This document shows, in pieces, positions 12,104-64,000 of a stretch of 64,000 bases of DNA. The notes under the pieces are model-generated. The model searched no databases and was not told the origin of the DNA. It worked only from the letters and a program-made list of their open reading frames with translations. Each line of letters begins with the position of its first letter. Positions within the stretch are counted from its first letter, which is position 1. A program made the position numbers and the translations under genes. The stretch lies in NCBI GenBank assembly GCA_003586115.2, contig QVOM02000034.1:110213610-110277609 (forward strand). The letters are read 5' to 3'. This DNA comes from Salvator merianae (taxonomy: Eukaryota > Chordata > Lepidosauria > Squamata > Teiidae).

Positions 12104-12205
12104 ATACCCAGAAGCAATTGGTGGGCCACTGTGCAAGAAAGGATGCTCGACTAGATGGACTGTGGCCTGATCCAGCAGGACACCTTTTATGTTCTTATGT
12201 TATGA
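12104..12205 (-). mobile_element. CR1-like LINE 3' fragment
   Basis: The minus strand reads AACATAAGAACATAAAAGGT, CTGGATCAGGCCACAGTCC and CATCTAGTCGAGCATCC. The same sequence recurs at 14395, 19010, 38588 and 56694. The CR1 assignment is from memory of this abundant reptile repeat. Confidence 0.65.
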
Positions 12206-17127: not shown

Positions 17128-17845
17128 CCAAAATAGCATCCCCTCGTCATCCTGAAAAGATGCCTGCTGCCACCCTGTCTCCATTTTTGGTGGCAGAAGG
17201 CACCTTCGAAGTGATCACAAGGGTTGTTTCATGGTATGGTCATTTGCAGAGACACCTCCAAAGCAGGGCAGTTTCTTCCCATCCTGTTCAGAGGTACCAT
17301 GGAAAATGACACCTCCTCTCTTAGAAATGGAGACAAGGTGGGCACTGTGCATGGGATGGCCCTATCCACTCACAACAGAGCCGCCTCTTCTAGAAGTGGA
17401 GACATGGCCTTTACTTTTAGAGATGGTGGGGAGGGGAGGGGAAGTGAGGGCAATTCTGCACTGGCAGGTATACTGGACCACCAAGCATACTAGGAGCCTC
17501 CTGTCCGCATGCTGATGTAGTCTAGCATGCTCCATCCACACAAGACAGAACATAGACCAGACCTCGAGGTCCCAAATGGTGGTTTAGTCTACTCTACCAT
17601 GCTTAGGCACGGTGGGGATCTGAAAACATGCAAAGATGGCTGCGCGTGGCTAATGTGCTGACAAATCCTATGGGCTCTTGGAGCTTTCAGAGCCTCCCTG
17701 TGCTGGTTCCAAAGCTGGGAGCTGGAATAGAACAGGCTGTCCCAATACAGATGTCATTGTTCCAGAACAAAAACTCTACTTGGGTCCAGTCTACTTGGTT
17801 CAGTCTACTTGATCCAGTCTACTAAAAGTAATTGTGAAAAGGCCC
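17128..17845. mobile_element. Composite of MITE-type elements
   Basis: The stretch contains a copy of the TGGTATACTGG family (17456-17530) and ends in GTGAAAAGGCCC, a GGGCC-type terminus. Order and nesting are not resolved. Confidence 0.4.
17456..17530. mobile_element. TGGTATACTGG-family MITE, half copy
   Basis: CTGCACTGGCAGGTATACTG and ACTAGGAGCCTCCTGTCCGC match the left arm of 60628-60812. Confidence 0.65.
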
Positions 17846-45729: not shown

Positions 45730-46055
45730 ATAGAGTTGGAAGAGACCTCCAAAGTATGCAGGATTCACTAGCCCATCCTGGGCAGATGGCTATCCAGTCT
45801 CTGCCTGAAGACCTCCTGTGATGAGGGTCTTATTACTTCATGAGATAACCTATTCCACTGTCTGATAGCTCAGTGGTTTCTAATGTCTAACCTGAATCTA
45901 CTTCCTTGAAGTTTCATCCCACTGGTTCTAGTCTTGCCCGCTGGGACAAGTGAGAATATGTCCAATCCATCTACAGTATGAAGGCCCTTCAGATGAAGAT
46001 AGCTATCATATCCCCCAACAGTCTTCTCTTCTGTAGACTGAACTTACCTAGATCT
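45728..46055 (+). mobile_element. CR1/L3-type LINE 3' region just upstream of the Reeler gene
   Basis: CATAGAGTTGGAAGAGACCT, GATGGCTATCCAGTCTCTGC, TATTCCACTGTCTGATAGC and GGCCCTTCAGATGAAGATAG follow the order of a repeat common in bird and reptile genomes. It ends about 115 bp before the start codon, so promoter or 5' UTR sequence could overlap it. Confidence 0.65.
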
Positions 46056-46144
46056 CATGTCCCATTCTACTGTCTGAGTGCCAATACATGTGGCAACAAC
46101 CAAATATCTACGGTCAACAGTTTAGTCAATGAAGTTCTATTTAC

Positions 46145-46169
46145 TTGTTTTGTTTTCCTTTCCCTTAAG
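46145..46169 (+). promoter_or_regulatory. Probable splice acceptor directly before the start codon
   Basis: A pyrimidine-rich run (TTGTTTTGTTTTCCTTTCCC) followed by TTAAG abuts ATG 46170. This looks like a 3' splice site, so the 5' UTR is probably on a separate upstream exon that I could not locate. Alternatively the tract is simply untranslated leader. Confidence 0.5.
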
Positions 46170-46365
46170 ATGGAGAGATACCATTTCTTCACAGTTCTGC
46201 TCTGTGGAGTTTTCATCTCAAGAGCATTCAGTCTACCATCTACAAACTTTTCAATAGACTGTGAATCCATGATGCCCGACCACTCAACTGAACCACAGAA
46301 ATCTGAACCGCCTTATCGGATTTCTGTATCATCAGAAGAATATGACCCGGAAAGCGAATTAAAAG
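46170..46365 (+). CDS. Exon 1 (first coding): signal peptide and start of Reeler domain
   Basis: It begins at ATG 46170 and encodes 65 codons plus one base (phase 1 exit) at a donor reading AAAAG|GTACC. The N-terminus MERYHFFTVLLCGVFISRAFS has a short charged start, a hydrophobic core at about residues 6-16 and a likely cleavage site after residue 19 or 21. The mature part opens the Reeler fold with C31, the CESMMPDH stretch and the PPYRISVSS strand. A pyrimidine-rich tract ending in AAG lies immediately before the ATG, so this exon may itself begin at a splice acceptor with a noncoding 5' exon upstream. Confidence 0.88.
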
Positions 46366-49300
46366 GTACCATGCATATTTTTCCTGCTTTCCTATAACTT
46401 GTTATAGCTTTATTCAGATTGCACTATTACAAAGGATCTATTTCTCTGAGAAATTAATGGTACATGATCAAAACATATTTCCTGAGATTGATTTAATGTT
46501 GGAAATGAAAAATCATTGCTGCAAAGCAGATTTCACTTATAAGGTTTCATTATTTTCCATATTTTACAGCCAGCACATTTAAATGTCCATTCTATGGGTG
46601 GAGTTTTAAAATCACTGCTTTACGGTGCCTTCATGGTGGTTGTATCCTTATAGCAACCTGCTGATATGTAGCGGCATGTGTTATGGATCAGAAAATGTTC
46701 TCCACTCCACTAATGCTAGAACATTAGTGAAAATGTGTCTGAGCGTGACACACCCATTTCAAAACTTTACTGCCCATCCCATCCCATCCCATCCCATCCC
46801 ATCCCATCCCATCCCATCCCATCCCATCCTGAATTGGAATAGTATGGACAAAATGTGCAGAACTGCTGAAATTATGGCACTTTCAGGAGAGGATAAAGTG
46901 AATCAGAGGCTGACCAAGAGTAAACGGGCATGTGTTATCCTCAGAACTATTGCAAGCAGAACATGCAATATATGATACTTACAATGTTCATGGTGGTTTT
47001 TTTCCAGTCAGCATTGAAGGAACTTCTGGATTCAAATGGTTTATGTTACAAGCCCGAGACATCGATGAAAACACCCCTGTCGGTTCATTCAAAATCACAG
47101 ATCCCAAAACACAGGCTTTTGATTGTTACAACATGTCGGTACGTGATTATTCCTTTGGATTGCTTATTTAACATGTGCCTTAATTCTATATCTCAGAGAG
47201 GAACAAGAAATTGCTTTTATGGACAGGCTCATCTGTTTCAATATTTAATGCCACCACCCCAGTATGTTTTGAAAAAGAAATCATGGCAATGTCTTTTAGT
47301 CACCTGCCTACCCAAGAACAAGCAGGTGGACATGAATGATGGCTCATGAAGGAAGGGGAAAGCTAGTGACTGGAAAAAGTGATTTCTTTTCAGCAAGTAG
47401 GGCTGTAATCCTGTACTGGATTCACTAGGCTGTTGAAAGGAAAGCACTTTCTTTAGTCACTGCCTTGCCCCTCCCTGCATCAAACAGGCTGATGAGTACA
47501 GTCATTGCACTTGTCACAACTGGACATATCAAAAGGACAAGAAAGAGAGATATATGTAAACAACAGAACTGAGTATACAAGTAAGTTCAAGGGAAAGAAA
47601 CCCTGAAAATAAGTCTTCCCAGCAGGCCAAGTCTGTGAATATGGGCACACTTGACCAACCATGGTCCTCCATTCCGGGAGTCCTTGAAAAGCAGGTTGAT
47701 TGGTCAGCTGGACAATTATGTGGCTGCCAGCAATGGCCCAGGCCAACCCACCTGGACGATGGAGGGTGAAAAGGTAGGGGGGCTGCAAACAAGTTGGAGG
47801 AGGCCACAGACATATTTCAAGCAGGCCACAGCACAATCGGATAAACAAAAGGAGAGGCCTCAAACTCAACTGAGAAGATTAGGAATGTGAAGGGGCGCTT
47901 GTAGAACTGGGGTCAGGGCTCGAGGTTTGATTAGAATCAGTTTGTCTGTGTTGATTCAAACCTAACTGCAAAAAATTGGTTTGTGCACATCTCTACTACC
48001 CTGCATCACCCCCTAGATATTATTTTAGCATTCTAAGATGCTTGGGAAAAGAAGTATATTTTCAAAATGGCATGCAAAAGTAGTTGCATTAACCCAAACT
48101 TTCCGTTCTGCGTGTGCTAGGTATTATCTAAAGTCTTGATCTTTAATTGTCAAGGAGAGGAAATTAATCCAAGTTGAAATTAATAGAAGACACCAGTCAG
48201 TGTAATACAATTCAAAGTGCAGCAGTCATGCCAGAAACAGTGCATGAATTTGTGCTTTGCCCAGTTTCTGGATGTGAACTGAAACCCCACAGTGTCCTTG
48301 GGAAATTCTTAGTTTGCAGAGCGATGCTTTGAGCATAAATCATTAAATAAGACAGAGCAGCGCAAAGCAAGTAAGATGGCGAGCTTCTACAGAAATGACA
48401 ACAGGAATATGTCTTTTTAATTTTTAAAAAATAAAAAAATATGGCTGAGGTTGTGAGAGGGCTCTTAGGTGCTCTGTGTCACTGTCTGCTGGAAAATTTT
48501 GAGGCAATTTCAATATTTGCATTCTATCCAAGAACATAATTACTTCCGGCAATTTACAAGCTGCAACCCGGAGTCAATCTCCAATGTTAATGTTTGAAGA
48601 TTGCATTTAAGGAGGAAAGATTTTAAAATAGTGTATCATGGTGTTACATCATTTTTTAATTTTTCAGAATTCAGCACTGATCCATACAGACTCAGAAGAG
48701 AAGAACAACATAACATCTCTTTGGGTTTCACCTGCTGATAAAAAAGTTCAGTTTTTGTAAGTGTATGATATTAAGTCTGATTGTGGTTTTCTGTTTCTAT
48801 GGAATTAAATTTTAATCCTAAAATTTCCCTGATATTCTCAAATGTCCTCTGATTTGAAGAATCACTAACATGGAACGTAGATGAGATATGGAGGTATTTC
48901 TAGAATATTTTGATGCAGGATAATATTAGTATTAAGTAATAATGTTGTGGGAAAGCAATTCAGAGGTAAAAATGTTAAAAAGGTAAAGATATAAGAGTAC
49001 AAAGGTCACAAGAATAAGAATGAAATGGAGGGAACTTCAGGTTCCTGGGTACTATACATTTAAAATGTTTGAATAATGTCATATCATGTGAAAATTCTGA
49101 ATAGTGTAGTTTTAAAAAATTTAAAAATAGAAGAAATTGTTTGCATTTGGGGTTTTTGGAAAACAAGATTTAAACAGAAATGTGCGTGAAAAAAAATCAT
49201 TTTTTATTAGCTTTCGAGCAAAAATCTGTACTGTCATTTCGTCAGTGAATTTCAGTGACAAAAATGCATTTTTCACATTTGATTTCATAGTTTTTGCAAT

Positions 49301-52300
49301 TTTTCCCATTGAATGTGCCATTACGGTTTAAAGATATTGAAAATGTGAAAATTTGATGAATATTTCATTTTCGCAAAAGAAGAGGCTGTTTTGTTTCAAT
49401 CCAATACTGTAAATGCAAAAAAGGGCATTTTTGTTGCGATGCAAAAATGTGCAAATATGAAATTTCATACAGATATTTGAATGTGAATTGACGTTTGCAA
49501 ATCCCTAGATTAAAACTGTAATAATGTGTACTATAATAAAATCCACATTAACACCATACTGAAACATTGATTATTTCCGCACTTCCTCTTTGTATCCTTG
49601 GATAGGATGGGCTATCCCATCCGGGGATAGACAATCTTTCCCAAACTGGGATGCTGCTGGCATGGGTCAGGGCTTGTCCACATTGGGACGGCCTATCGCA
49701 TGCCAGCACCTGCAGCCGGCTCCGAAGGCTATACCAGCTTTAGAGCTGACACTGGAGACTCTGTAGGCCAGAAATGAAAGTCCCTGGCCTTTGGAGTTCC
49801 CAGGGGGGCATTCCAACAGTGCACCCTGTTGTACTACCAAAATGGGGTCCAGTAAGCCATATGATGGGGCTGTGTGCCTTCTGCACATGGCTCACTGTTT
49901 CAGGACAGGGGGGTAACAGGTCAGTGCACCTTGAGCAAGATAGGGTGCCATTTTAGGCATTCTATCCTGCTCTGTGCTCTATCTCATGCAAATGTAGCAT
50001 TTCAGGAGTGGGGGAGCCTGTGCTGTCCCACAATAGCATGCAGAAGACAGATCTCTTAGACCCCTTCCTGAACTGCATTACCAGTAACTGCAGAAACAGT
50101 TCATGGGTGCACAACTGTGTCCCTCCAGATGTTCCGGAACTCCAACTCCCATCATTCTATGCCAGTCCCAGCCAGACATCTAGAGAACTGCAGTTGAGCA
50201 CCTCTACTGTAATTCAGAATGGATTAACAACAGTATTTTCTTTCCAGAGCAACCATTTTCAAAGATCCTGAGACATACTGGTTGGTTATCCCCAACACAG
50301 CTATCTTCCCTAAAGGTTTCAATGAAACAAGTGAAGAATCTGAAGCTGGAGATAAGTCCAAGGAAGGGAAAGTTGCACCTAAAGGCAGAAAGAAGGTATG
50401 TTGAAATCTCGTGGATTTAATCTCTTATTTTTGGCTGTGTAGGTGGCATTTGGTTAAAACTGAACAGTTTTAGTCCTGCTGATTCTTCCATTGAGTTTAA
50501 TGGGATACAAAAGCGGTCATTTCTTTCACTAGATCATTCCCCATGAGTTTAAAATTATTCCTGTGCTGTTTTCCCTCGTATATACTCTATGCTTCTCCAT
50601 GCACTGGAGTTCACAGTTGCACAACTTCAGAAAATTTAATGTGAGCTGCCCAGGATGGGCCACTGTGATCATGAAGGTTTTATCTTTATAGTGACCAGTC
50701 TTTACACATATATCTGTGTAATTATCATGCAGAGTCATGTGATCAAAGCAGTGTACATTTCTATGTAGATAATGTGACCCAGCATAAGTAAATTGCACCA
50801 TAATTATCTGTTTTGTTTCATTTACAGTCTGCATTTACTGTACGAATAAACTGCGGCCAGGTAAGAATCCTTAGAATACTATTTCTTGATATGCATATCT
50901 CGTACTGTCCGAGCCCATATGTTGAATTTTAAACAGTGGGTTCCATCTTAAGCAGGGATGAACTGATCTGTGGCTTTTCAGTTACTGTTAGATTCCATCT
51001 CTTATAAGCCTCATGGTGCCTCTATTCATGTAATTTATTGTGGCATTAAAGTGGCGGCTAAGTCTCCATATGCAATTATCCTAAACCATTTCCATATGTG
51101 TAGAATGGGTCTTTTGTCGTGTTTTTTTAAAAAATCCCCAAGATATCATTAAGACAAAATATCAGATGAAGTGATATTGTTCTAGTTTGTGTCATTTGCT
51201 TTCCAGGACTGTGAGCATTTACACACACACCCTTTTTTTCTGCAATGTAATTTTTCAGTTACAATATTTGATCTCCATGCTATATAAAAGTGATCCATCA
51301 GAGACAACAAAGTCTACCAGTGGACTAAGAATATACAGGGGCTCTTTTTGATGGCACCAAAGAAGTGGCACCAGAAGTCAGTGCTACCACAAAAAGGGGC
51401 TGACCAGGAACTTCGAAGTCTGGGAACTTTAGTTCCTGGCCTTTGAAGTCTGGTGCCAGCATCAAGAGCTATTCCCAGTCTTAATAATCGGTTCTCAGGC
51501 CTGTGCCGAGAGGAGCTGTCCGAGTACAAATGGTCTTATCCCAGCCCATTGGCGATTCATCCCAGAGTGGGACAGATTGTCTATCCCACTATAGTTTATC
51601 CCACTCTGCTCCAGGATACCGTGGGGGGGACGGGACTGGACAGAATAACCTTAATCTAAAAATCTCTGGAGACCCCAGCTTAACCCCCCAGCTTAACCCC
51701 CCAACTTGTCATACAAAATAAGTAAGAGTTTTTCTCCTCCAGACATATTCCTGAGTTGGTTTCCCTAATATTGTGTGAGAAGAGAAGCTTGGCATGTTTA
51801 AAGATAGGTTGGGAACATATGGATGATTCCAACCTTCCGTTCTCACGTTTCTTTGTCGTGTCTGAAACAGAACTTTGCCTTCTTCCCTGCACTGAGGCTC
51901 AAATTGTCCATTTACAAACTGCCTTTGAAAATAACTACTTTTTATCACTTTCAGGGAGGTGCTGGATCTTATGCAAGCAGCAGTGAATGTGCCAAGGTGA
52001 GCACACATTTCTCCAAAATTTACTACAAAAGTCATAATGTTAGCTGGGGATGACCCAGGGTTTTAATTGACCCAGTAGGACTTTGGCATCTCATGACATG
52101 TGGGCACAACTGAAAGTTGCTGTGTACTCTGTTTTTACACTGCCACCCAGACATCACAGATCTATGGGGCACAGTTGCTTTTTCAGTATCTGCTTCAGAT
52201 AACAGATGGAACATGTACATTTATGTACAAAAGTTCCATAGAGTGTATTTTCTACTCATCTAAATATTAAATCATATTTCTCCCTCATTTGATGCCCCCC

Positions 52301-55300
52301 CCCCCCAAAAAAAGGCTACCCTAAGCAACTGCTCAGTTTGTCTGTATGGTCAGGCCAGTCCTAGAGTAATTTCTGCTGTGAATGTCTTGTTAGTTTTTTT
52401 TAAATAATCTTCTTTCCTCGTTCTGTAATTATAATCTCTTTCTGCATGAACTTTCACCTCATTAGCGTGAACATCAGCATTCTACTTCTTACTAACATTC
52501 CTATTTCTGCTGCTATCAAATATGTGCATTGTGCCGGATCTCGTGGTGCTCTTCCAAACTTCACATATTAAAATGGAGCATTGGTGACTGCCTTTGTGCA
52601 TGTTGTTTTCTCCAGGTTGACAAAAACACAGCAAAAAGAGTGTTTTGCAAAAATGCAAATGCAAACTATAGTGTGGCAGCCAGTTCAGTTTCTGCGCTTG
52701 CCTTCTTGGACAACTGAAGGAACCCCAGCACCATGGCAGGTTCTATTCGATGCTGATGCCTTCTCGGAGTTTCTCTCCAGTGGGTGGCAGGAAGCCAAAA
52801 AATGCCATTTAACATTTCCTTGCTGCCTTTTTATCACCTGAGGTAGCATCTGAGGTGGCCGTCTGAGTCCAATTGGCAGTATATTTGCTCAACAGAAACC
52901 AGATGCGTGTTGCCCCTGTTGTAAATAGCTGTGATTCCAGACAGTTGATAGGGGAGCCCAGATCAGTGAAAATACAATGTGGAGGCCACTTGTAAAACTG
53001 GGGTTGATTCTAGCAGCAGTTTATTATGCCTGTAATGTCCTTCTGCACACAATATCTTGCAATACAAACAGGTCACTGTTCAGGGGTAGTTCAAAGCAGA
53101 GTCCATGTGGCAGCCCTTCAGTGTAAGAGATGCAAATAATGTCCAGTTATACACCATGGTACATGTTTTCACAAACTGGCCTACATTAGGTAAAGAGTAG
53201 TGAGTCACTGTAGGGAGGGGCTGTAGCACAATGGTAATGGAAACAGCCTAGATAGCAGAGAGCTGCCAGTTTGATCTCTGACCTCTCCCCAGAAGTAGGC
53301 AAAGGCAAACCTCTTCTATATTTCTGCCAAGAAAACTGCATAGAGGTGCCCATTAAGGTGCCCATGCAATCAACCAGCAGTTGGCCATAACTCAGTGGTA
53401 CCAAACAAGTGAGTCACTATGGGTTGCACATACTACATTATGGATACATTTGCTAAGTGAGGAGTTGAAATTGTCTTTGCAATGAAACATCAATATCACA
53501 CTCCTGTGTGATCACTGGGAAGAGGTCTTGCCTTGCCCAGTGTAGCTTCCTCAAAAGCTTGTGAGGGTAGGAGGGAAGCTTTACTAGCGCAGAACAGCAG
53601 AGTGAAGCAAAAAAAGCTCAAAATCAACAGCCCATCTTATCTCGTTCAACCAGTCAAGGAGATGAGGAACCTAAGGGCTACAATATTATAATATCCTCTA
53701 TGAACAAAATCTTACATTTTATTCTCTTTCAGGGTTCAACATTTTCTTCTCAGAGTATCAGCGGTCAATCTCAGGTAAGAGAGGCTTTCCCCAAGATATT
53801 AGTGTTTTGGCATCCCTTTAAGTAAAGGCTTCAGCTGTGAATATTGTAATGACTTCAGTGCAACGCAAACCAATGCACTCATTTTCTTTTGCTGAGAAGC
53901 AATTGTGGATTGAATCACATGTGGCAGCACTATTTATATCCCCCAAATAGTCATCCTTGATTTTTGTAGTATCATATTCAATTGCTCAAAACAGAAGTTC
54001 ATACTTGTCTTTACAAGTTCACAGTGATTCTTGCTGATGGTCCCTTGATTGATCTGGTTCTCTTCAAATATGGTGTCCACTATTCCATATAATCTGAAAC
54101 CATCACCGTGTAGGGATGATCCCACAGCACCATAAAGGGGCTATGAGAGAGCTCATGGGCTTGGGGGTCACACGATCCCATGCCCATTAAGTTCACATCC
54201 CACCATCGAGGGGTGGAAGACACTGTCAGCAGCACTTTCCCCACAGAGTGGGAGAAAGCATTCTGACACAGCTTTCCCCCATTTTGTTGCTCCACTGCTG
54301 CCATAGTGTGGACCTTTAACACTTTATTTTTTATGAAAAGCAAAACCTGTTTTTGGGGGGGGATGCAGAAAACAGGCAATTTCCAAGGCCATTCCCTGTG
54401 CCTTCAAAAATAGTTCTGGACAGAAATGGTGAAACCAGGAACAAATGTTCCCCCACTTTGCAGTTACTGTGGCCAGGAGAATGGAGCGGATGTGGATAGA
54501 ACATTTCCCATCCCCATAGCCACTGTGTCTGGCAGCGTCTCCAGCTGCTTCCAGACAATACTGGCTGTGGACAACTAAAACATTGTCCACAGCTTGATCG
54601 GAAGCAGCTAGATTGCTTTCGGATGTGAATGCTGTGAGTGGGTGGGGCGGCCACAGCTGCACAGTTGCATGCTGCATTTCTGTTACAATGCAAGTGTCCG
54701 ACCATGCACTGGATGTTGTTGTGGCCACTGCCATGGCAATTGTGCCTGTCATAGACGGGCCATTTACACTTTGAATGCTGATGGCCCAGTACAGGGCTGT
54801 TCCAGCACTCAAAGTGCGGATGACCACCAGTATTCTGGGTCCCTACCAGCCTAGTATGGTATTGTTATACCATACTAGGCTGGTAGGTGCAAGTAGGCCC
54901 TCTGATTCAATCCCTTCAGGTCAGAGATACAGGTTTTGGAACCCAAGTCTGGCCACACTTTGGTTCCAAATGTGTTTCTTAATGACATTGTGTTGTCTCT
55001 GAAAGAGCATGTCCACAATTTAGGGGTCCTATTTAGACTCACCGCTCCTGCTAGAAAAAGATTGGAAGCTGTGGCTAGATGAGCCATACATTGCAGTGTT
55101 TTGTTTGCCAGCACTGTAGAAAGAATTTCACAAAGAAATAACCTGTGCTTACTTTCTTTCAGGGTGGTATAGTGTACCAAGGAGGCATTAAGAAAGGCGG
55201 ATGCATTGGTGTAAGCATAACCTTCCCAGATTTATATTACGATTTGACTACTGTTCTTATAAATTAGGTGGTAATATAGAAATTCTAGTGCACGCACTCA

Positions 55301-57064
55301 GTAAATTTTCTATTAAACCCTTCTTTGTAGTAGAAAAATTGAGCTTCATGAGCTTTTAAAGTCACTGTTTCTATAATCTTAATTGAAGGTGCAAATTTTG
55401 ATGTATAAGTCTAAATAACTTGGATTCACCACTATAGAAATTAAAAACTTGTGCAGAATTCTTTCCACACTATTAGATTATGATAGTTAGCATCTATAGG
55501 TTGTCCTTCCCATGTAATAATTACAAGGAAATTATTTTCTGTTTCCGCATGAAACCATCCATCTCCCAATGTATGAGGGGCTCTTATATTTCTTTCATAC
55601 ATTCCCTCTTGCTATGCTGATGTAAGATAGGAAGGATGTCTCCCAAGAAGCTAATTGCAATCCTAAGCCTTGTTTTCCCCCCTAGAAAAAAGCCCGTGTG
55701 TACAATCTGAGCTTGAAATGTACTATTTCTAAGCACAGCAACAAAAAGAAAAGCCAAAGCACTAATTCTGTTCCTTTCTCTGTAATTTCTTATATCCCTC
55801 TCAATCTCTGAAATATTATTACGTCATGGGTGTCTGTAAGGGGCAAATCAACACAAAACACAGTAACCACTTTGATCCTCTTGTTTTCTCTACAGGGTGG
55901 AACAGCCAGCGTCTACAACAAATATGGCTGCACTGATGTAAGTATTGTCCTGGAGGGTGTTTTCCCTTTAGGAAAAGAGATGGTGATGATCATTCAGTTG
56001 AACAGTTGCATTTTATTAGTTTTTTTTTAGAATCAGGGTGGAATAATAGTAATTTGATAGAAAACAGAACAGCAAAAATTTGAACATGACTAAACAGCAA
56101 ATTATCTATTGTTGTTTATCAGCTTAAGAGTGATTCCACACTGGCTGGTATACTGGATCAGCAAGGAGGTGGGTTCTCCGTTTGACCGTACCAGCATAAG
56201 GAAGGGAGACTCCTGGTGCACTTATTGGTTTAGTACAGTGGCCAGTGTGGAATTGCCCTAAGTTCTCAAGGATGGGGATGATGCAAAAATGCCGAATCAA
56301 ATCTGAGCAACTGCAAGTGTGTCTTTGCTCATATGGCAAATGATGATATGCATTATACACTGTGCAGAAAGAGGGAGATTTCTTTTAGTGAATACCCTTA
56401 AATTTGCAGAGGTGTCTTGTGTCAGTGACTATGGGAATGTTTGAAAAAACCACAAGTCCTTCGTAAATTTAAAGTCACAACTGGCAAGCATTTATCTATA
56501 TAGTCATCAGAAATGAAACCTAATTTGATAGCAGCTAATGACAGACTGCATTAGTAGTGGGAGCAGGAGCAGGCATTCATCATTTTGTATGGTAAAGATG
56601 CTGGAGCACTGGAAAAACAAGAACCAGTTTTCATGACTTCCTGGAAATTTCTTGGTGCCAGCAAACTCCAGCAAAAGTCAAGCAAAGTTGTTCCTAAGAA
56701 CATAAGAGGAACCCTGTTGGATCAGGCCATGGCCCATCTAGTCCAGCATCCTGTTTCACACAGTGGCCCACAAATTGCTTCTGGGCATCTCAAGCAGAAT
56801 AAAACGGCCAAACCTTCCTGTTTTCACTATGCTGTAGCTAACTTGCAAATTGATGAACAGCTAATGCTGTTAAATTTCTGCTCACTGTTTTAGTTTCTAA
56901 GAAATAAATATATATGCATGACTGTATTCAGAGGTTTTAAAGTAAATATAAAAGGCGTATTTTCAGCATTGGTTCATTTGACTCTCCAACATTATCCTGA
57001 AATAAATCTGAATTAGAACTTTTTGAGCATGTCCAAATCTCTAAATGTTTAAGGCCTAACTTTA

Positions 57065-57097
<33 letters not shown>

Positions 57098-60000
57098 TAC
57101 TCACACTCACACAAACTTTCCTCCCTTCTTGTCACCTCTGCTTAATCTTACAACTGCTGAAGGCTATCATTTTCTAGTGAAGTAGTTTGTTGACATACGC
57201 TTGAATTATGCATTTGTTTTACATGCTTTATTTCATTTGCAGCCGGGTTTAAACTATGGGGGCAGCAACTCATATGGACAGGTAAGATACTAGTGATTAT
57301 TAAGTTAAAACCTTCCTAAAACGTAAAAGAAATCTACAAGAAAAGTGTGTGTGGGGGGGAAGCATAGTGACACAGAAACATTCTTATTTTTCTTGCTCAG
57401 ACAATTTTGTACTCCTCAACAACTTGTTAATACTTGCTTTCTGTTTTTTTACAGTCTGTTTCAACAGTTTCTGATAAAGGGAAGGTATGCATTCATTTTG
57501 AAATACAACAATGAATTATATTTATTTGCTTAGGGTTTTCAGTCAGCACAGCCCCTTCCAACAACTAGTTTACAGTTGTCTCCTTATTTAAGGAACAGCT
57601 CAGCTTTGGACCAGCATGACTTGGAGGGATGCCCAAGTTATTTTGTGCCTGATGTCCAGCAGCAGAAGTATGCAGTAGCTCATGGTGTATACTATTCAAG
57701 CCAAACCAAGTAACTTTGGCAGAACCAACCACTCTTGCTTTCATATGTGGAAAAAACAGAATAATGAACTATGCATTTGCTAAGAGAGGCTGTAGTTCAA
57801 TGGTCACAACTGTCTGGAAAGCAGAGGGTTGCAGGCTCAATCCTCAAGACCTTCCCAAAAAAAGTAATGGCAAACCACTTGGTAACAAAACTGGAGCCTG
57901 TCATAGTCTGCACTAGCATGCAAATGGCTGGTTCTTATTCCAGGAGGGACCTAATCTGGAATAAGGCCCAGTGCAGGAAAGGTGACACTATTCAAGCTGT
58001 CATTGTTTTCTGACTTTGTTCTGATGATGCTGAATACAGAGAAAAGGCTAAAAGTCGGTTGTACTATTTCTCATATTTTTCTATCTGTTCCATGCTTTCC
58101 AGGAAAAATTATGAAAGTGAGGGGAAAGAGAATACACTGATACCATGAAAGGAACCATGTGTTTTGAATTCAACGCAATTTAATTGTATCTTTTTTTTGG
58201 CAGGTGATTGTGTACGCTCCCAGCAAGCCCTACCCACCTGAAGTAAGCTCTTAATACTATTAGTAGCTGTGTGTAGTGAAGTAGTAGTAATCATTAACAC
58301 TCTGCATTAAGGGTTTTGACATATTTTAAGTCAAAGTTGCTGGTATGTTGGAAACATCAACTTTTGTGGTACAGAAGTATATTTTGTTATCTTGACTGAC
58401 AGATAAATATTTCTGTTCTCTTAACAGCGCATTACATACTCATCGGTAAGGATGCTTTCATTTTTCTTGTTTTAAACCCCACCCCAAATCAACTCTCACA
58501 AGGTATGTTCCAGTAAGGGAATTTTCTTGCAATTGATTTTTATGCAAAGTTGTTATAATGAATAGAGCTGTTCAGTGTTGGGAGTTGCTTTTAGTGCAAG
58601 CCATGACCATGATGGGCAGTTTGAGGTCAGTGGCTTTGAAGTTGCATTCGATGGCTCTGCCTTCAACAGCTTTAAAGTTGCTGCTATTTTCTACTAGCTC
58701 TCATCATTATCACCTATTTTGTTTTGTGAAAGGAACTTTTCTCCAATCTGCCTTCCTAAGCCTTGTTATACGAGCAAGTGGCGATAACAGCAATGATGAT
58801 AATACTGTGCTATGCACATATGCAGGACAAATAAAAACTTCTGTTCTTTTTTTCCTTTTAGCAACTTGCCAACTCTAAATATAAGCATATCCAGGTAATC
58901 CTCCTTTTTTGCATTTTTCTCCCCAAAGAAATTGTGAGCAGTTATAATACAAATGAGTAATGGATCAAGTCATGGTTAAAAACTCAAAGACATAGCTGTG
59001 TTAATCTGGATCTAGTAGCACCTTGGAGACTAAAGGAAGGAAAGAAGTTGCTAGCATGAGCTTTTGTAGACTAAGACCCTGTCCAGACAGGGGGAATATA
59101 ATGCTGTTATGGCACCACTGCGGTGGGATTGCCACATGTATCTGTGGCAACCCCACCATAGCTACACTATATCCCCCTTAAATTGCGTAATAGCCTATTT
59201 GGGGAAAACCCAACTCTGGTAGGTTTTCCTGAAACAGCACTATCACTTACCTTGTAGCTGGAGCCACCAATGTTGCTCTGACCACCATGCATGTGAGGGG
59301 GACAAAAAAGACACCGATGCATGCATGGTGGTGGCAACGTGCACATCCAGATATTTTGCACTAGCGAAATACCCTAATATACACGTCACCAAAAATCACA
59401 CAGACCGTGTCATCTCCTACAATGTCTAGCCAACAGGTGATCATTTCAGAGGGCATTTTCTCCCGAATGTTGCCTTTTGGCATTATATTCAGCTGGCATC
59501 TGGAGCTGACCTAAGCCTACTTCATCAGATGGTAAAAACTGTTAGCGTGAGAGCAGGTGCTAAAAGCACTCCATTTGTATGTGAGGGACTCTGTTCCCTA
59601 TAGTAGAAAGAGAAGACAGTGGACATGCAAAACAACATATAGGAATTCCTTCACATTGGTACGGGTAGCATTTTGCTGTCTGCCAACTTACAGTAGCACA
59701 CTATTTTATGGAGAGACAACAATTGAAAAAATGAGCAGTGGAAGATAAAACCAAAACAGGTCTTGAGAGCTATGGGTCACTTTTATATGGCTGTTTTGAC
59801 CACGCAATGTCCTGTTTAATCACTTGGTAACCTTCTCTATGCAAGAACAAACTAAGCTATCATTAAGAGTAGTTGTACACAGAAAAACAATTTTTGCAGA
59901 CTTTAAATTATTGGCCTGTCATGCCACACAGAGAAGAAATTTCACTACTTTTTGCCTTCAGACTTTTCCCCCCTAAAACCAAAGGAAATATAAATATATT

Positions 60001-60126
60001 CTTAACAATATGGGAAAAGATTTTTAGACTGCCCAGTTCTTAACCAGGTCCTAGATTTCTACACTGTTCAGATTCACAGGTGCGTGAGGTATCTTTTACA
60101 TAAATCTTAAAGAACTTTTATTTATT

Positions 60127-60161
<35 letters not shown>

Positions 60162-63100
60162 TATATGTCTTAATACATGTCCAACAATTTTTACATAAGA
60201 AAATGTCCTCAATTATATAATTTAATTTATTACTTCTACGCCACCCTTCCAAAATCATACATTCCACTGGAAGATCCTATTCCTCTTCTGTATTAGGTCT
60301 TCACTCTCTGAGTTTGTTTCCATATATTGCTTAGTCTTCATCCATTTCTCCCTTATCGTTCGATTCTCCTCCATTCTGCATAAATTATACTTTTCTTTAT
60401 TCTCGTTTATTAATTGAAAAGATATTTGGTCGATAATGTAACGATTCCACATCTGTAATGACCATTTTGGGGAATCTCTCCAACCATAAATAATTATGCT
60501 TTTGCTGCTCAGATAAGTTGATCTACTATAAAATATTCCACTTCCTCCAACTGGCATCTCTTCATAATATGTCCTAAAATCTCTAAGAACTATTTGCTCT
60601 GAAACAGTTTTCAACAGCACTCTAAAATATATTTCACACTGGCTGGTATACTGGACCAGCAAGCATACTAGGAGCCTCCCTTCCGCACATTGGTATGATC
60701 TAAGGGAGGTTCTGGGCAAGTTCTTCTTTCGACTACACCAGCATGCAGAAGGAAGGCTCCTAGTATGTTTTCAGGTCCAGTATACCAGACAGTGCAGAAT
60801 CACCCTAATTTCTGGAATGCTTTAGCTCCAATCTGTAATATCAGCAGTCTTCGCCTTGTGGGCTCCATGGGTAGATCTGCTCATATGACAGCAGTGTGGT
60901 GGTGAAATGGCTGCAGAAAGACCTGAAGTAAGTGCTCAGGAAGCACTACTCCCACTTTCTGTCCACAGTGCCCTAGAGAATGCTTAAAGCAGAATGGTGG
61001 TTCACTTCATACAGATCTGGGTGGGCCCAGACCCTGCCAGCACACTAATTGGCCTTATTCCAGAGTATATCCTGCACTAGGGGCCTGCTGTCCTGGATGA
61101 CACACCCCTATTCCACAATATATCCCAGAATAAGTCCCAGTGTGGAATAAGGGTCTAATTCTGTATTGGGGAAGCAGGGTCAAAAGTATTCTGCTCCCCA
61201 AGGCTAAATTATAGTGCCATAAGAATGCCAAGCGGGTCCTGCATTAGATGCAACAGCAACTATTTCAGTCAGTTCCTAAATATGAATTAATTGGTTTATT
61301 TTCAAATTTCTTTACAGAATACTCAATATGGTGAGAAAATCCAGGTATGTTCCAATTTTCCTCTGCTTTCTCTACAGTAACCGTAACAACTAGTTTCTGT
61401 GCATTGTGGTGGATTATCCTGTAGGGGATCTGATGTTTTACTTCCTCACTCTGAAAATACCTAATATGTCATAAATACAACAATATCCTGTGTTCGGATG
61501 ACTCTTTCACATAAAGGACTGCAGGCAACCAGGATAGATAAGTTGGCTAGAGCCTACTTGCAGACGGCTCAGCTCTCATGTCCTCCTTCTAATGACAGTG
61601 TAGTGTGTTAGATTGCAAAGAGGAAATTCATCAATGAAATAATATCAGCATGGACTTTGTAACTCCTTGGCAGAAGAAAGGCAAAAAAAATATGTTTTAT
61701 GATTGAACTTCCTCTCCCACCCGCTAAATAAACAATGGGCCTTTTCACACTTATCACCTTGGAACGGGATAATTATCCTATTCTAAGAGGGAATGGACTA
61801 CGCAGCATGGACACTGTCTGCACTACAGGGTCCTAAGTCTGCACCCGACACCAGCTACCAGCATTCACAGTGTGAATTATGGTAGCCGTGCCCGATTCTG
61901 ACCTTGGCAGTGGCCGGGAAGGGGCCAGACACTGCCATGGCAACCGGCAGGGCTGCACAGTGCACAGGAGTGATCAGTCCATTGCACTGGTGCAGTCGCC
62001 ACACCACCATGTATGTGTAGATGTATCTTACCAGGAGGTGACTATAAGGTTGTGGAGCACTAATTAATGCTCTGCAGCTAGCCATGATCGGGAGTAGCTG
62101 TAGCCGGCTCCTGGCCGCTCGGGCCTCCGCAAGGCGTGGACATACTTGGCTAAGAAGCATGCTTGACGCTTGCTAGCAGCAAGTACAAACAGACCCAATA
62201 TGTAATATCTGATAATGTACAGTGTACTTATTACAGATTACAACTGGTGCAGAAATGCAACAAAATGAATTTCAGAGTAGGAAAAGGAAGGCTTACATAC
62301 ATGTGCACATAATTATACATGTTCCCAAATCCTAATATGAGACTTGATATGGATGCATTCCAGCTTAGGGGGGAGTTATATGACAGTAATGCAAACCAAG
62401 GACGTGTATGCAGGAAGAGTGCAAGGACGTGCATGGATTTCCCAAATTTTCTGGAGTTGCCTAGAGATCATGATGCTCTTTTAGGCCAATATGTGTAGGT
62501 TGTATGGGTAAATCTTGAGAAATGGAGTGAAACCAAACCTGAAAAGTTCATTCATTCCTAATTATCAGCCACGTGACTTGTCACAATTCAAGACTGTCTC
62601 TGGCTGCATCTCAACGTCGCTTACTTATTCCACTATTCCTTCCTCTCTATCCCCCATGTTCCTTTCCCAAGCTTCTTTCCCTCTTCCTTTGTCCTTGTTC
62701 CATCCCCCCTCAATGAAACTTCCAATCCAAAATAAATGAACATAACTGTTTGAAGTGGGAAGGTTTGACTAAAAATTGCACTATTTCAGTTGAGACTCCC
62801 CGCACAGACTGCTGGGTAATTCTAGAAGACTTAGCCCGAGAAGGTGGGTCTTGTTAGTGGTGTGCTCTGTGGCAAATGTGTGCACCTTTGGAGTATGTGG
62901 TGCTTCTGTTAGCAGTGGCTTCAAAGAACCTTAAAGTGCCCATTTGTAGTGTTTGGCTCTTTCTTCTTCTGGGCATCATATAAACAAACAGAATAGAAGA
63001 AAGGTATAATTCAACCCATTTTGTTCATGTGGATGTGTCCTATGTTTCTGTTTGGTAAAAAGTGGTATCTTCAAAAAACTGTGTACATAGATGTAAAACA

Positions 63101-63187
63101 TTTTATGGCAAGCACTTGGATTACTGAATTACTTCTTTTTTTCTACAGGGTTCAGGCCCCCAATCTGGTGTCCGCATTACCATCCAG
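46170..63187 (+). CDS. Secreted Reeler-domain protein with a microexon-encoded tail (16 exons seen, 3' end outside window)
   Basis: The model joins 16 exons: 46170-46365, 47008-47138, 48668-48756, 50248-50395, 50828-50860, 51955-51996, 53733-53774, 55163-55210, 55896-55937, 57243-57281, 57455-57484, 58204-58242, 58428-58445, 58862-58894, 61318-61344 and 63149-63187. Every junction is AG/GT and the frame stays open for 332 codons. Residues 1-21 look like a signal peptide. Residues about 31-160 match the Reeler domain: C31 in CESM, PY at 48-49, GFKWFMLQAR at 73-82, VGSF at 90-93, C105, LWVSP at 127-131 and YW at 149-150. Residues 173-188 are a basic linker. Residues 189-332 are a Gly/Ser/Tyr/Gln-rich tail made only by microexons. 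Sequons lie at N26, N107, N123 and N164, so secretion and glycosylation are likely. Reeler domains occur in reelin, F-spondin, FRRS1, REELD1 and insect defence proteins; none of the partner domains of the first three is visible here. The last exon ends in a good donor, so more exons follow. Function is unknown; an extracellular structural, adhesive or defence role is inference. Confidence 0.85.
46773..46829. repeat. (CCCAT)n microsatellite in intron 1
   Basis: About 11 uninterrupted CCCAT units. The HPIPS-repeat peptide read from it is not real. Confidence 0.97.
47008..47138 (+). CDS. Exon 2: Reeler domain core
   Basis: The acceptor TTTTTTCCAG precedes a 131-nt exon that completes a Val codon split with exon 1 and encodes residues 66-109. 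It carries the most diagnostic Reeler block: GFKWFMLQAR, then VGSF and a cysteine (C105) before the domain midpoint. The donor is TCG|GTACGT and exit phase is 0. NMS at 107-109 is a possible N-glycosylation site. Identification rests on the order and spacing of these motifs. Confidence 0.9.
48668..48756 (+). CDS. Exon 3: Reeler domain, C-terminal half
   Basis: The acceptor TTTTTCAG precedes an 89-nt exon encoding residues 110-138 with an exit in phase 2 at TTTTT|GTAAGT. It contains SALIHTD and LWVSP, which match the conserved ALTH and W-x-AP positions of Reeler domains, and VQF leading into the final strand. NIT at 123-125 is a glycosylation sequon. Confidence 0.9.
48960..49510. other. AT-rich block in intron 3, possibly a hAT-type remnant
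   Basis: The sequence is dense in TTTTTGCAAAAATG-like words on both strands and ends GCAAATCCCTA, reminiscent of hAT ends. No matching left end or target duplication was found. Confidence 0.3.
49570..50101. mobile_element. TTTCCRCA-family MITE in intron 3
   Basis: The left end ATTATTTCCGCACTTCC and the right end ACTGCAGAAACAGTT are inverted. The interior TTGGGATAGG-type and CAGGACAGGGGGGT blocks match related copies. It ends about 145 bp before exon 4. Confidence 0.55.
50248..50395 (+). CDS. Exon 4: end of Reeler domain and basic linker
   Basis: This 148-nt exon starts after TTTCTTTCCAG, completes Leu139 with one base, and ends in phase 0 at AAG|GTATGT. It supplies the last Reeler strand (ATIFKD, then YW at 149-150) and then changes character to an acidic/Ser stretch and a Lys/Arg-rich linker ending PKGRKK (183-188). 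The linker could be a dibasic processing site separating the domain from the tail; that is inference. All later exons are tiny and phase 0, so this exon marks the boundary between the ordinary gene and the microexon array. Confidence 0.9.
50828..50860 (+). CDS. Microexon 5 (33 nt, SAFTVRINCGQ)
   Basis: Acceptor TTTCATTTACAG and donor CAG|GTAAGA enclose exactly 11 codons, phase 0 on both sides. The peptide has one cysteine near its end and finishes in Gln. Its VRI core recurs in microexon 16 (GVRITIQ), which suggests an exon-duplication relationship. Confidence 0.85.
51340..51650. mobile_element. MITE fragment in the intron before microexon 6
   Basis: CAGAAGTCAGTGCTACCAC, AACTTTAGTTCCTGGCCTTT and the CTATCCCACTATAG palindrome region are shared with other GGGCC- or TTTCCRCA-type copies. 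Confidence 0.4.
51955..51996 (+). CDS. Microexon 6 (42 nt, GGAGSYASSSECAK)
   Basis: The acceptor TATCACTTTCAG and donor AAG|GTGAGC enclose 14 codons in phase 0/0. It opens with Gly-Gly and carries a cysteine three residues from the end. This layout (GG, Tyr in the middle, C-x-x end) recurs in microexons 8 and 9. Confidence 0.85.
52616..52717 (+). CDS. Possible alternative terminal exon (33 codons then stop)
   Basis: TTGTTTTCTCCAG is a good acceptor and is followed by 33 open phase-0 codons starting VDKNTAKRVFCKN, then TGA. The Asn/Ala/Ser/Tyr content and single Cys resemble the microexon peptides. No downstream donor of good quality exists, so it could only be an alternative end. Confidence 0.25.
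   Translation, partial: VDKNTAKRVFCKNANANYSVAASSVSALAFLDN
53210..53407 (+). mobile_element. tRNA-derived SINE with 11-bp target duplication
   Basis: An A box (TAGCACAATGG) and a B box-like GTTTGATCTCT head the element, followed by the tail containing CAAGAAAACTGCATAGAGGT. AGTGAGTCACT flanks both sides (53199-53209 and 53408-53418). It sits in the intron between microexons 6 and 7. Confidence 0.8.
53733..53774 (+). CDS. Microexon 7 (42 nt, GSTFSSQSISGQSQ)
   Basis: The acceptor ATTCTCTTTCAG and donor CAG|GTAAGA enclose 14 codons in phase 0/0. The peptide is six Ser and three Gln out of 14, with no cysteine. It belongs to the Gln-ending class of modules. Confidence 0.85.
54490..54899. mobile_element. 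GGGCC-type MITE in the intron before microexon 8
   Basis: The right end AGGTGCAAGTAGGCCC and the near-perfect palindrome AGCCTAGTATGGTATTGTTA, ATACCATACTAGGCT identify the family. The long minus-strand open frame 54324-54827 crosses it and is not a gene. Confidence 0.55.
55163..55210 (+). CDS. Microexon 8 (48 nt, GGIVYQGGIKKGGCIG)
   Basis: The acceptor ACTTTCTTTCAG and donor GGT|GTAAGC enclose 16 codons, the longest of the series, in phase 0/0. Seven of 16 residues are Gly. It shares the GG start, a central Tyr and a C-x-x end with microexons 6 and 9. Confidence 0.85.
55686..55781 (+). CDS. Possible cassette exon (32 codons, Lys/Ser-rich)
   Basis: A strong acceptor (TTTTCCCCCCTAG) leads into 32 open phase-0 codons ending at a weak donor TCT|GTAATT. 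It would preserve the frame between microexons 8 and 9. Its peptide is Lys-rich with one Cys (KKARVYNLSLKC at the start), unlike its neighbours. It is twice as long as any microexon, so it may be a chance open stretch. Confidence 0.25.
55896..55937 (+). CDS. Microexon 9 (42 nt, GGTASVYNKYGCTD)
   Basis: The acceptor TTTTCTCTACAG and donor GAT|GTAAGT enclose 14 codons in phase 0/0. It has the same length and layout as microexon 6: Gly-Gly start, cysteine third from the end. Two tyrosines are present. Confidence 0.87.
56126..56262. mobile_element. TGGTATACTGG-family MITE
   Basis: GATTCCACACTGGCTGGTAT at the left pairs with CAGTGTGGAATTGCCC at the right. It lies in the intron between microexons 9 and 10. 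Confidence 0.65.
56694..56815 (+). mobile_element. CR1-like LINE 3' fragment in the intron before microexon 10
   Basis: CTAAGAACATAAGAGGAACC and GGCCCATCTAGTCCAGCATC match the family. It is truncated after GGGCATCTCAAGCAG. Confidence 0.7.
57077..57100. repeat. (CA)n microsatellite in the intron before microexon 10
   Basis: About 11 CA units, followed by imperfect CACT and CACA words. It lies about 145 bp upstream of microexon 10. Confidence 0.9.
57243..57281 (+). CDS. Microexon 10 (39 nt, PGLNYGGSNSYGQ)
   Basis: The acceptor TTTCATTTGCAG and donor CAG|GTAAGA enclose 13 codons in phase 0/0. The peptide is Gly/Tyr/Asn-rich and ends in Gln. The intron after it is only 173 bp, the shortest in the gene. 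Confidence 0.87.
57455..57484 (+). CDS. Microexon 11 (30 nt, SVSTVSDKGK)
   Basis: The acceptor CTGTTTTTTTACAG and donor AAG|GTATGC enclose 10 codons in phase 0/0. It lacks Tyr, Cys and Gln and ends in Lys, like microexon 6 and exon 4. Confidence 0.83.
57543..57713 (+). CDS. Possible alternative terminal exon
   Basis: TTTGCTTAGGGTTTTCAG precedes 56 phase-0 codons (start SAQPLPTTS) and then TAA. If spliced from microexon 11 it would give a shorter secreted form. No clear poly(A) signal follows, and a run this long can occur by chance. Confidence 0.2.
   Translation, partial: SAQPLPTTSLQLSPYLRNSSALDQHDLEGCPSYFVPDVQQQKYAVAHGVYYSSQTK
57782..57890 (+). mobile_element. tRNA-derived SINE, head fragment
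   Basis: GGCTGTAGTTCAATGGTC (A box), AGCAGAGGGTTGCAGGCTCA with CAATCC (B box) and GTAATGGCAAACCAC match the SINE family. It lies in the intron between microexons 11 and 12. Confidence 0.7.
57897..57985. mobile_element. Fold-back MITE, right-arm fragment in intron between microexons 11 and 12
   Basis: CTGTCATAGTCTGCACTAGC, then TATTCCAGG, AATCTGGAATAAGGC and CAGTGCAGGAAAGG match one arm of the family. It is joined to the SINE fragment just upstream. Confidence 0.7.
58204..58242 (+). CDS. Microexon 12 (39 nt, VIVYAPSKPYPPE)
   Basis: A poly-T tract and GGCAG precede 13 codons, with donor GAA|GTAAGC and phase 0/0. The peptide has four Pro and two Tyr, so its composition differs from the Gly-rich modules and may form an extended turn-rich segment. 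Confidence 0.83.
58428..58445 (+). CDS. Microexon 13 (18 nt, RITYSS)
   Basis: The acceptor TTCTCTTAACAG and donor TCG|GTAAGG enclose only six codons in phase 0/0. It lies 185 bp after microexon 12. Both splice sites are strong and the position fits the series, but an 18-nt exon could be a chance match, so confidence is lower than for its neighbours. Confidence 0.7.
58862..58894 (+). CDS. Microexon 14 (33 nt, QLANSKYKHIQ)
   Basis: The acceptor TTTTCCTTTTAG and donor CAG|GTAATC enclose 11 codons in phase 0/0. It begins and ends with Gln and contains two Lys and a Tyr. The following intron (2423 bp) is the longest and is filled with transposons. Confidence 0.8.
59083..59392 (+). mobile_element. 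Element homologous to 42985-43310, in intron after microexon 14
   Basis: It begins GACCCTGTCCAGACAGGGGG and includes GCAACCCCACCATAGCTACA and GGGAAAACCCAAC, with TTTTGCACTAGCGAAATACC at the right. These blocks appear inverted at 42985-43310. Confidence 0.65.
60130..60160. repeat. (CA)n microsatellite
   Basis: About 15 uninterrupted CA units at the edge of the L1 3' fragment. Confidence 0.95.
60165..60605 (-). mobile_element. L1-type LINE 3' end in the intron between microexons 14 and 15
   Basis: The minus strand encodes GWRDSPKWSLQMWNRYIIDQ and later EKWMKTKQYM, matching the C-terminal part of L1 ORF2, and then stops. It is antisense to the host gene. Confidence 0.65.
60628..60812. mobile_element. 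TGGTATACTGG-family MITE
   Basis: TTTCACACTGGCTGGTATAC and CTAGGAGCCTCCCTTCCGCA face CAGAAGGAAGGCTCCTAGTA and CCAGTATACCAGACAGTGCA. This is the most complete copy of its family and is strongly palindromic. Confidence 0.75.
61046..61155. mobile_element. Fold-back MITE, degenerate copy
   Basis: GGCCTTATTCCAGAGTATAT at the left and CCCAGAATAAGTCCCAGTG at the right are inverted family landmarks. The middle is shortened. Confidence 0.6.
61318..61344 (+). CDS. Microexon 15 (27 nt, NTQYGEKIQ)
   Basis: The acceptor AATTTCTTTACAG and donor CAG|GTATGT enclose nine codons in phase 0/0. The end KIQ resembles the HIQ and TIQ ends of microexons 14 and 16, suggesting that the three derive from one ancestor exon. 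Confidence 0.8.
61737..62196. mobile_element. Harbinger-like MITE, TSD AAT, in intron between microexons 15 and 16
   Basis: The left end is GGGCCTTTTCACACTT and the right end is the complement of GGGTCTGTTTGTACTT. AAT flanks both sides. It belongs to the same family as 26157-26587. Confidence 0.7.
63149..63187 (+). CDS. Microexon 16 (39 nt, GSGPQSGVRITIQ)
   Basis: The acceptor TTTTTCTACAG and donor CAG|GTAACG enclose 13 codons in phase 0/0. It ends in Gln like microexons 5, 7, 10, 14 and 15. It is the last exon found; the good donor shows that the transcript continues beyond the window. Confidence 0.83.
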
Positions 63188-64000
63188 GTAACGGAATAAT
63201 GGCGTTTCCTGCAATGTTCCATGCATTGCTTCCCTAACTTTGGGAGGTTTGAATTGCACTTTTAAATGATAAGCTAGGAAAACTCATACCACTGTCATTG
63301 ACAGTAGAATATATAGGTTCAGTAGCGACTTAGTTGAAACAGAATTGATGGGGTAAGGTGATTGCACCAAATGGCGCTTCACTTTTAATCTCATTGAATT
63401 CCATTTTGGTCTGCTGTGGACTGAAACGTGGCTTGGGAATATCAAAGACAAAGCTTCAAATGGCGCACTTCCCCCAATGTTCATATTGTACCACATGGAA
63501 GATCTTCAGTAACACTGGGAGACATTAGTACCATCCAAACGGCCATTTTTGGCTGTCTTCTGGTCACTTGAGGGCAGGACAGACAAACACCTCTTTCCCT
63601 ATTAAGTCCCCAAGACTACTAAATTCCTGGTAAGTAGGACTTAATGCAAAGCCTCATTAAACTATCCGAGGGTAACCATTGTCAGAGAATTTGACTCTGG
63701 ACTGCCACGGAAATATGTACAGTGGTCAGGAGGCAACACAATGTGCGCAGAGGCACCTGGAATCACTGCCAGAGACCCCAAATGCAGCAGACTTCCACCT
63801 GCATGTCCAGTCCCAGGGGTACATTCTGAGGCTGCTGAGAGTGGTGCTCCGCCATAGCTGCCTTCCTTGGGGCTCTGAGGTGGCACATAGTATGGATTAC
63901 ATGCCCCCACCCTCAGGGCGGCCACTCTGTGTTATGGTTTGAATCCCACTCCTTTTGAGGGGCACGTGGATGAAGCTAATGTGAAGGTTTTTTTATTTAA
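63188..64000. other. Start of the next intron, cut by the window edge
   Basis: No further microexon was found. The last 350 bp have MITE-like composition but no defined ends. Confidence 0.45.

Follow-up and report, generated by a model that had tools for sequence, protein, structure and literature searches.

Schistosome micro-exon genes (MEGs) encode secreted-type proteins through runs of very small symmetric exons, which can be dropped or doubled in frame (PMC4350168); the same source describes these genes as apparently restricted to platyhelminths. The SCPP genes, such as AMBN, also encode secreted proteins; virtually all of their introns are in phase 0, and their exons can be duplicated without a change of frame (PMC6732285). 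FRRS1/SDR2 has a Reeler-DOMON-cytochrome b561 architecture, and the Reeler domain of F-spondin has a solved structure (PDB 2zot and 3coo).

The gene described here lies in a 64,000-nucleotide stretch of DNA from the lizard Salvator merianae (the window) and resembles each of these systems in part. Like the MEGs, it appears to encode a secreted-type protein with a run of very small symmetric exons that could be skipped or duplicated in frame, but it also encodes a folded Reeler domain, most of its tail peptides are conserved over sauropsids, and its relatives were found in sauropsids and then in fish, not in platyhelminths. It resembles the SCPP genes in its phase-0 introns and in exon duplication that leaves the frame unchanged, but the introns after its exons 1 and 3 are in phases 1 and 2, a Reeler domain is present, and read-through gene models from turtles and birds point to a nucleotide-sugar transporter as its neighbor. 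Its Reeler domain is homologous to that of FRRS1/SDR2, which provides the nearest nonsauropsid matches, but a small-exon tail stands in the place of the DOMON domain, which was not found. The predicted fold of the head resembles the F-spondin Reeler domain, although identity is ∼20% and no further Pfam domain was seen in the window protein. Judged by these comparisons, the family appears to share the defining features of neither the MEGs nor the SCPP genes and to lack the DOMON domain of FRRS1; the locus itself is best read as a real multiexon squamate gene in which a Reeler part is followed by a tail encoded over at least 12 small phase-0 exons with splice-like borders.

The part of the gene inside the window comprises four Reeler exons and 12 small exons (Table 1). 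An earlier note on this DNA, made from the sequence alone, had described the small exons as an array behind a Reeler domain, and the number, lengths, and coordinates that it gave were recovered exactly to the base. All 12 are preceded by AG and followed by GT, all have lengths divisible by three, and all keep the single frame that had been proposed, which runs through the 16 exons as 332 stop-free codons. The introns after coding exons 1 to 4 are in phases 1, 0, 2, and 0, and every later intron seen is in phase 0; exons 5 to 16 are all symmetric (phase 0-0), with introns of 173 to 2423 nt between them. The term “microexon” used in the note holds for a limit of ≤48 nt (12 of 12) but is generous, since only 3 of 12 are ≤30 nt and only 2 of 12 are ≤27 nt long. 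Very small symmetrical exons make up 12 of the 16 exons but 432 of the 996 coding nucleotides in the window, in which the gene is incomplete. It appears to run on beyond the window end at 64000, because exon 16 ends in a donor-like site at 63187 and relatives (e.g., P0010 and P0026) carry further tail.

TABLE 1 Exons of the candidate gene within the window. The last two columns give the rows of the conservation alignment, among 10 squamate and 14 other relatives, in which the exon was similar.
Feature	Position	Strand	Length (nt)	Encoded peptide or content	Squamate rows	Other rows
Coding exon 1	46170..46365	+	196 from ATG	Hydrophobic N-terminus, Reeler start; ends phase 1		
Coding exon 2	47008..47138	+	131	Reeler domain		
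Coding exon 3	48668..48756	+	89	Reeler domain		
Coding exon 4	50248..50395	+	148	Reeler end, then basic joint (...GRKK) at exon 4/5 boundary		
Small exon 5	50828..50860	+	33	SAFTVRINCGQ	10/10	1/14
Small exon 6	51955..51996	+	42	GGAGSYASSSECAK	9/10	9/14
Small exon 7	53733..53774	+	42	GSTFSSQSISGQSQ	7/10	13/14
Alternative exon 7 via nested acceptor	53754-53774	+				
Small exon 8	55163..55210	+	48	GGIVYQGGIKKGGCIG	9/10	14/14
Small exon 9	55896..55937	+	42	GGTASVYNKYGCTD	9/10	14/14
Small exon 10	57243..57281	+	39	PGLNYGGSNSYGQ	8/10	12/14
Small exon 11	57455..57484	+	30	SVSTVSDKGK	9/10	13/14
Small exon 12	58204..58242	+	39	VIVYAPSKPYPPE	7/10	13/14
Small exon 13	58428..58445	+	18	RITYSS	4/10	12/14
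Small exon 14	58862..58894	+	33	QLANSKYKHIQ	3/10	7/14
Small exon 15	61318..61344	+	27	NTQYGEKIQ	4/10	7/14
Small exon 16	63149..63187	+	39	GSGPQSGVRITIQ; last in window	7/10	0/14

In the rest of the window, seven further open reading frames (of 38 listed, ≥110 amino acids; six in positions 1 to 46000 and one at 60255 to 60770) contained no Pfam domain, the whole window yielded no tRNA and no Rfam family at gathering score, and no relative of the Reeler-tail family was found in positions 1 to 46000. Several repeats were seen. Positions 60637 to 60794 form a 158-base self-complementary stretch (75%) that matches near 17441 to 17522, with its left edge also matching 56133 to 56165, and that looks like a MITE-type repeat. 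An interspersed repeat of ∼124 bases at 56695 to 56817 has copies at 14515 to 14638, 19007 to 19129, and 12063 to 12197 (81 to 88%), and an uninterrupted run of CATCC pentamers occupies 46775 to 46829, in the intron between coding exons 1 and 2.

The Reeler domain claimed in the note was clearly recognized by Pfam (PF02014, residues 31 to 150, E value of 2.9e-30, 105.9 bits against a cutoff of 21), and no other Pfam domain was found in the portion of the protein encoded within the window. In the predicted structure of the Podarcis relative P0002, modeled from a 30-sequence alignment, the Reeler part is beta-rich, with a mean pLDDT of ≥90 in each ten-residue block over residues 41 to 160, and the tail has a pLDDT mostly below 50 and no strands beyond residue 207. 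The best match of this predicted fold among solved structures was the F-spondin Reeler domain; a single-sequence search of solved structures with the first 162 residues of the window protein gave no match. The hydrophobic N-terminus of the window protein looks signal-peptide-like by eye, and a helix is predicted at residues 5 to 14 of the P0002 model. At the exon 4/5 boundary, the window protein has the basic joint PKGRKK, and a basic cluster was present in 11 of the 12 relatives searched from residue 150 on; the twelfth, Crotalus, has a shorter model in which the cluster, SRKKS, is placed earlier. The joint is RQKR in Cygnus and RSKR in Hemicordylus, both of which we take to read like a convertase site, and PKGRKK is not a classical furin site.

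A protein search (11 relatives) and a profile search (72 relatives) together returned 76 proteins, of which 69 are sauropsid (squamates, turtles, a crocodile, and birds). The other 7, all from fish, were weaker matches (best, 1.2e-27), and PF03351, named DOMON in the domain scan, is listed for 6 of them. Mammals and amphibians were not represented among the 76, but the profile search had scored only the 7993 candidates sharing most words, which does not prove that they lack the family. A protein search with the tail alone returned 12 proteins, from turtles only. The records carry names as different as ferric-chelate reductase 1, FRRS1 reductase, RELD1, sericin 1-like, hornerin-like, filaggrin-2-like, loricrin-like, mucin-21-like, dentin sialophosphoprotein-like, and putative defense protein; one from Platysternon megacephalum (P0007) is filed as “sodium channel protein type 5 subunit alpha-like.”

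In a tree of the Reeler domain (26 rows), the 22 family rows were split from the 4 fish rows with 100% support, and the squamate proteins formed a copy A (6 rows) and a copy B (5 rows including the window), each with 100% bootstrap and with 93/93 for A plus B. The window protein was nearest to Elgaria (69% identical) and, among squamates, fell outside the tree's two geckos, and the B branch was long (0.61); coding exon 1 is 60% identical over 65 amino acids to both Elgaria P0001 and Podarcis P0002. By this tree, the window gene belongs to copy B, one product of a squamate duplication within an unnamed sauropsid family. Copy A was not found in the window, where a tblastn search with the 76 relatives gave no match starting before 46000 at an E value of 0.001. 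In squamate proteins of type A, the Reeler domain and the tail are separated by an additional Asn/Ser/Thr-rich stretch. A single record from Euleptes europaea (P0012) contains two Reeler-plus-tail proteins in tandem and appears to be a gene model in which tandem copies have been fused. The models of Caretta (P0015) and Hirundo (P0066) continue by read-through past the family gene into a nucleotide-sugar transporter (PF04142), presumably SLC35A3, and Mauremys mutica P0011 opens with a fragment of a 7TM receptor (PF00001). Mammalian FRRS1 is itself close to SLC35A3, an arrangement that would fit an origin of the family from an FRRS1-like gene.

Exon conservation was scored on an alignment of the window protein to 10 squamate and 14 other relatives selected from the 76, and an exon was counted as kept when at least 70% of it was aligned with at least 30% identity. 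Most of the small segments proved to be conserved in related species, with exons 6 to 13 widespread among the 24 relatives. Exon 5 was aligned outside squamates but was little alike there, and exons 14 and 15 were patchy, being kept in half or fewer of the rows both in squamates and in the other group; in Crotalus P0010, they match at 10 of 11 and 8 of 9 residues, respectively. Exon 16 was recovered in squamates only, a pattern that fits some exon turnover. Compared with the window protein, the B-type relatives (P0001, P0002, P0003, and P0012B) are 59 to 66% identical in the Reeler part and 50 to 66% identical in the tail over 69 to 143 aligned residues, with the tail values flattered because the alignments were local and the models incomplete; for the Crotalus tail, identity to the window tail is 61%. 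The alignable tail of the B copies thus appears to be conserved about as well as the Reeler part.

Because tail peptides are common to squamates, turtles, a crocodile, and birds, most of the array probably predates the split of these groups, which took place ∼260 to 280 million years ago, and would be an old, sauropsid-wide feature rather than a local novelty. The suggestion of the earlier note that the protein might be lineage-specific is therefore not borne out in the narrow sense of the term. Its expectation that standard gene predictors would stop at exon 4 was mostly wrong, as many records reach deep into the tail; several models from lizards and geckos end early or leave out sequence, at small exons that differ between them. 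The description “little-studied” found support: within the literature searched, which left most subscription journals outside its scope, we found no description of the family, and queries on microexons plus the Reeler domain and on pairs of the misleading record names gave no match. A search on the Reeler domain and FRRS1 led to PMC10691727, a paper on cytochrome b561 in which we found no description of the family, and we found none in the literature on REELD1, which does not prove its absence from the literature.

We compared the edges of blocks that are missing between relatives of ≥85% identity with the exon boundaries of the window gene, with shuffled exon orders as the null. When each of 30 recipients was compared to its most similar donor, 45 of 76 edges fell on a window boundary (null mean, 8.6), which none of 20,000 shuffles reached, and both edges did so in 11 of 38 gaps, which 8 of 20,000 shuffles reached; as the rows are related by descent, these and the following shuffle figures are not strict probabilities. 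Nine of the 38 gaps repeat one insert of P0058 and more come from P0047, and both donors look like intron read-through. When each gap position was counted once, boundaries coincided with 24 of 42 edges (21 distinct positions; null mean, 4.3; 0 of 20,000), and when the read-through donors P0058 and P0047 were also removed, they coincided with 22 of 36 edges (null mean, 3.8; 0 of 20,000). Over all pairs, 93 of 154 edges fell on boundaries (77 distinct gaps).

Change of the tail by whole small exons, as the note had proposed, was seen in the form of exon-sized blocks missing in relatives and of a tandem block in Hemicordylus. Mauremys mutica P0011 is without exons 6, 8, and 10 to 13 in comparison to Mauremys reevesii P0004 (one edge is off by one residue), Lacerta P0020 is without exactly exon 13 in comparison to Podarcis raffonei P0021, and Hemicordylus P0026 carries a 42-amino-acid block matching exons 6 to 8 twice in tandem, with 37 of 42 residues identical. 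Since more than half of the gap edges in these protein comparisons fall on the exon boundaries of the window gene, exon borders appear to be common to the genes of turtles, birds, and lizards. Splicing is judged here from the sequence and from the gene models of other species, some of which are faulty (read-through into neighbors or retained introns). Isoform labels on the records reach X29 in Cygnus, X6 in Passer, and X2 in Mauremys.

An origin of the small exons by duplication of one another found no clear support, with 7 of 66 peptide pairs at a P value of ≤0.05 against ∼3 expected, and no DNA repeat among those listed for 46000 to 64000 links two exons. Upstream UGC is a mark of the neuronal microexon program; it was not enriched in the 40 nt upstream of the 12 exons (7 in all, against ∼0.72 expected per exon), and we rejected this program as an explanation.

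The window tail consists of 17% Gly, 16% Ser, and 8% Gln, and the tails of seven relatives contain 20 to 32% Ser, 10 to 21% Gly, and, in six of the seven, 7 to 10% Gln. The tails bear Cys-x(8-14)-Cys pairs, many of which enclose a Tyr; the window protein has two such Cys-Cys pairs, each split over two exons. Among 5000 shuffles, the observed count of Tyr-x(4,5)-Cys was reached 421 times for the window, 765 times for the swan, and 534 times for the crocodile, compared to 93 for Sceloporus, 20 for Hemicordylus, and 3 to 5 for two turtles and Podarcis raffonei. The spacing was thus clearly above shuffles in P0004, P0016, and P0021 and less so in P0026 and P0023; the window, swan, and crocodile proteins showed no such excess, because of which a Cys-Cys loop in the tail stays a suggestion. 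A hydrophobic C-terminus that we take to resemble a GPI-anchor signal is common to the turtles and the swan; the models compared from lizards, a snake, Passer, and a crocodile have no such end, and the end of the window gene lies outside the window.

Taken together, these data are best explained by a real copy-B gene for a surface protein, secreted or anchored, that combines a folded Reeler head with a flexible tail adjustable via symmetric exons, a reading to which we assign a probability of roughly 0.6. The protein would enter the secretory pathway, and its Reeler domain would be the folded head that binds there, at an epithelial or other extracellular surface. A proprotein convertase may cleave the basic joint at the exon 4/5 boundary, and the Ser/Gly/Gln-rich tail may act as a flexible spacer with small loops closed by Cys-x(10-13)-Cys pairs that mostly enclose a Tyr; the turtle and swan proteins would perhaps be GPI anchored through their hydrophobic C-termini. 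Skipping, loss, or duplication of tail exons would alter the length of the tail and the number of loops and, because every tail exon is symmetric, would leave the frame intact, so that evolution, and perhaps splicing, could change the tail length.

The readings that contradict this one concern the existence and the identity of the gene. Tiny segments turn up easily by eye, and the exon calls were made on sequence, which might suggest that the array consists of chance splice-like segments or belongs to a decayed gene. As a control, we scanned for splice sites with thresholds set by the weakest of the 12 exons, and hence tuned to them, and with informal weight matrices, for which reasons the weight of this evidence lies in the controls and not in the raw scores. 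On the + strand of the whole 64 kb, the scan returned 15 stop-free multiple-of-three candidates, which were the 12 claimed exons, one candidate nested in 53733 to 53774, and two far upstream (22893 and 23591); on the − strand, it returned one. Without the stop filter, 50396 to 64000 contained 13 candidates divisible by three versus 1 of another length, and 300 dinucleotide shuffles of this region gave a mean of 0.16 and a maximum of 2 candidates, compared to the 13 observed (one nested). The sites of the small exons scored higher than those of the four Reeler exons. With the scan, the shuffles, the recurrence in relatives, and the gap-edge comparison all against it, an array due to chance or decay is extremely improbable and is ruled out for the array as a whole; single exons may still be unused in Salvator merianae. 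It is also very unlikely that the gene is the ferric-chelate reductase (FRRS1) named in many bird records. Its nearest nonsauropsid matches are indeed fish ferric-chelate reductase 1 proteins, and the Reeler domains are hence related, but DOMON is absent from the window protein and from all eight sauropsid relatives scanned and present in both fish proteins, PF03351 is listed for 0 of the 69 sauropsid relatives, and the tree parts the family from the fish rows with full support. We disfavor an FRRS1 identity on this domain content. Cytochrome b561 was not found in the scan of the window protein, whose gene has its 3′ end outside the window, nor was it seen by that scan in the two fish FRRS1-type proteins.

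Other readings overlap the copy-B surface protein and add to it. A structural matrix protein of eggshell, cornified skin, mucus, or a silk-like material, with a Ser/Gly/Gln/Cys-bearing tail cross-linked by disulfides or transglutaminase, would add a tissue role; we consider this a tentative possibility, as the Ser/Gly/Gln-rich composition in seven relatives and the automatic names hornerin-, loricrin-, filaggrin-, sericin-, and mucin-like point toward it, but such names mirror composition only, and exons 6 to 13 encode specific conserved sequence and no simple repeat. A vertebrate counterpart of the parasite micro-exon genes would add regulated variation, with skipping of symmetric exons that would generate a set of secreted surface variants, perhaps for defense of mucosa or skin. 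Small symmetric exons in a secreted-type protein, exon-sized blocks that distinguish near-identical relatives, the isoform label X29 of the swan record, the same design in the micro-exon genes (PMC4350168), and two profile-search records named “putative defense protein” speak for it. The missing blocks may, however, stem from faulty gene models or from differences between species and not from isoforms, hypervariability is not seen in most of the tail peptides, which are conserved, and the small-exon splice sites outscore the Reeler-exon sites and do not suggest weak, regulated exons; such a counterpart seems rather unlikely to us. A little less doubtful, but still speculative, is the broader idea of a sauropsid-wide unnamed micro-exon family in which regulated in-frame use of 12 or more symmetric small exons would tune tail length and disulfide-loop number and would give each animal, from a single gene, a pool of secreted or GPI-anchored variants.

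As a copy-B surface protein gene, the locus would place the design of the parasite micro-exon genes, and in part that of the enamel-protein genes, in a vertebrate surface-type protein in which sauropsids have retained most of it. Because database records of the family go by at least ten unrelated names and include many partial models, its expression and function may have been overlooked. Recognizing it as one family would allow existing RNA data from birds and reptiles to be reread.
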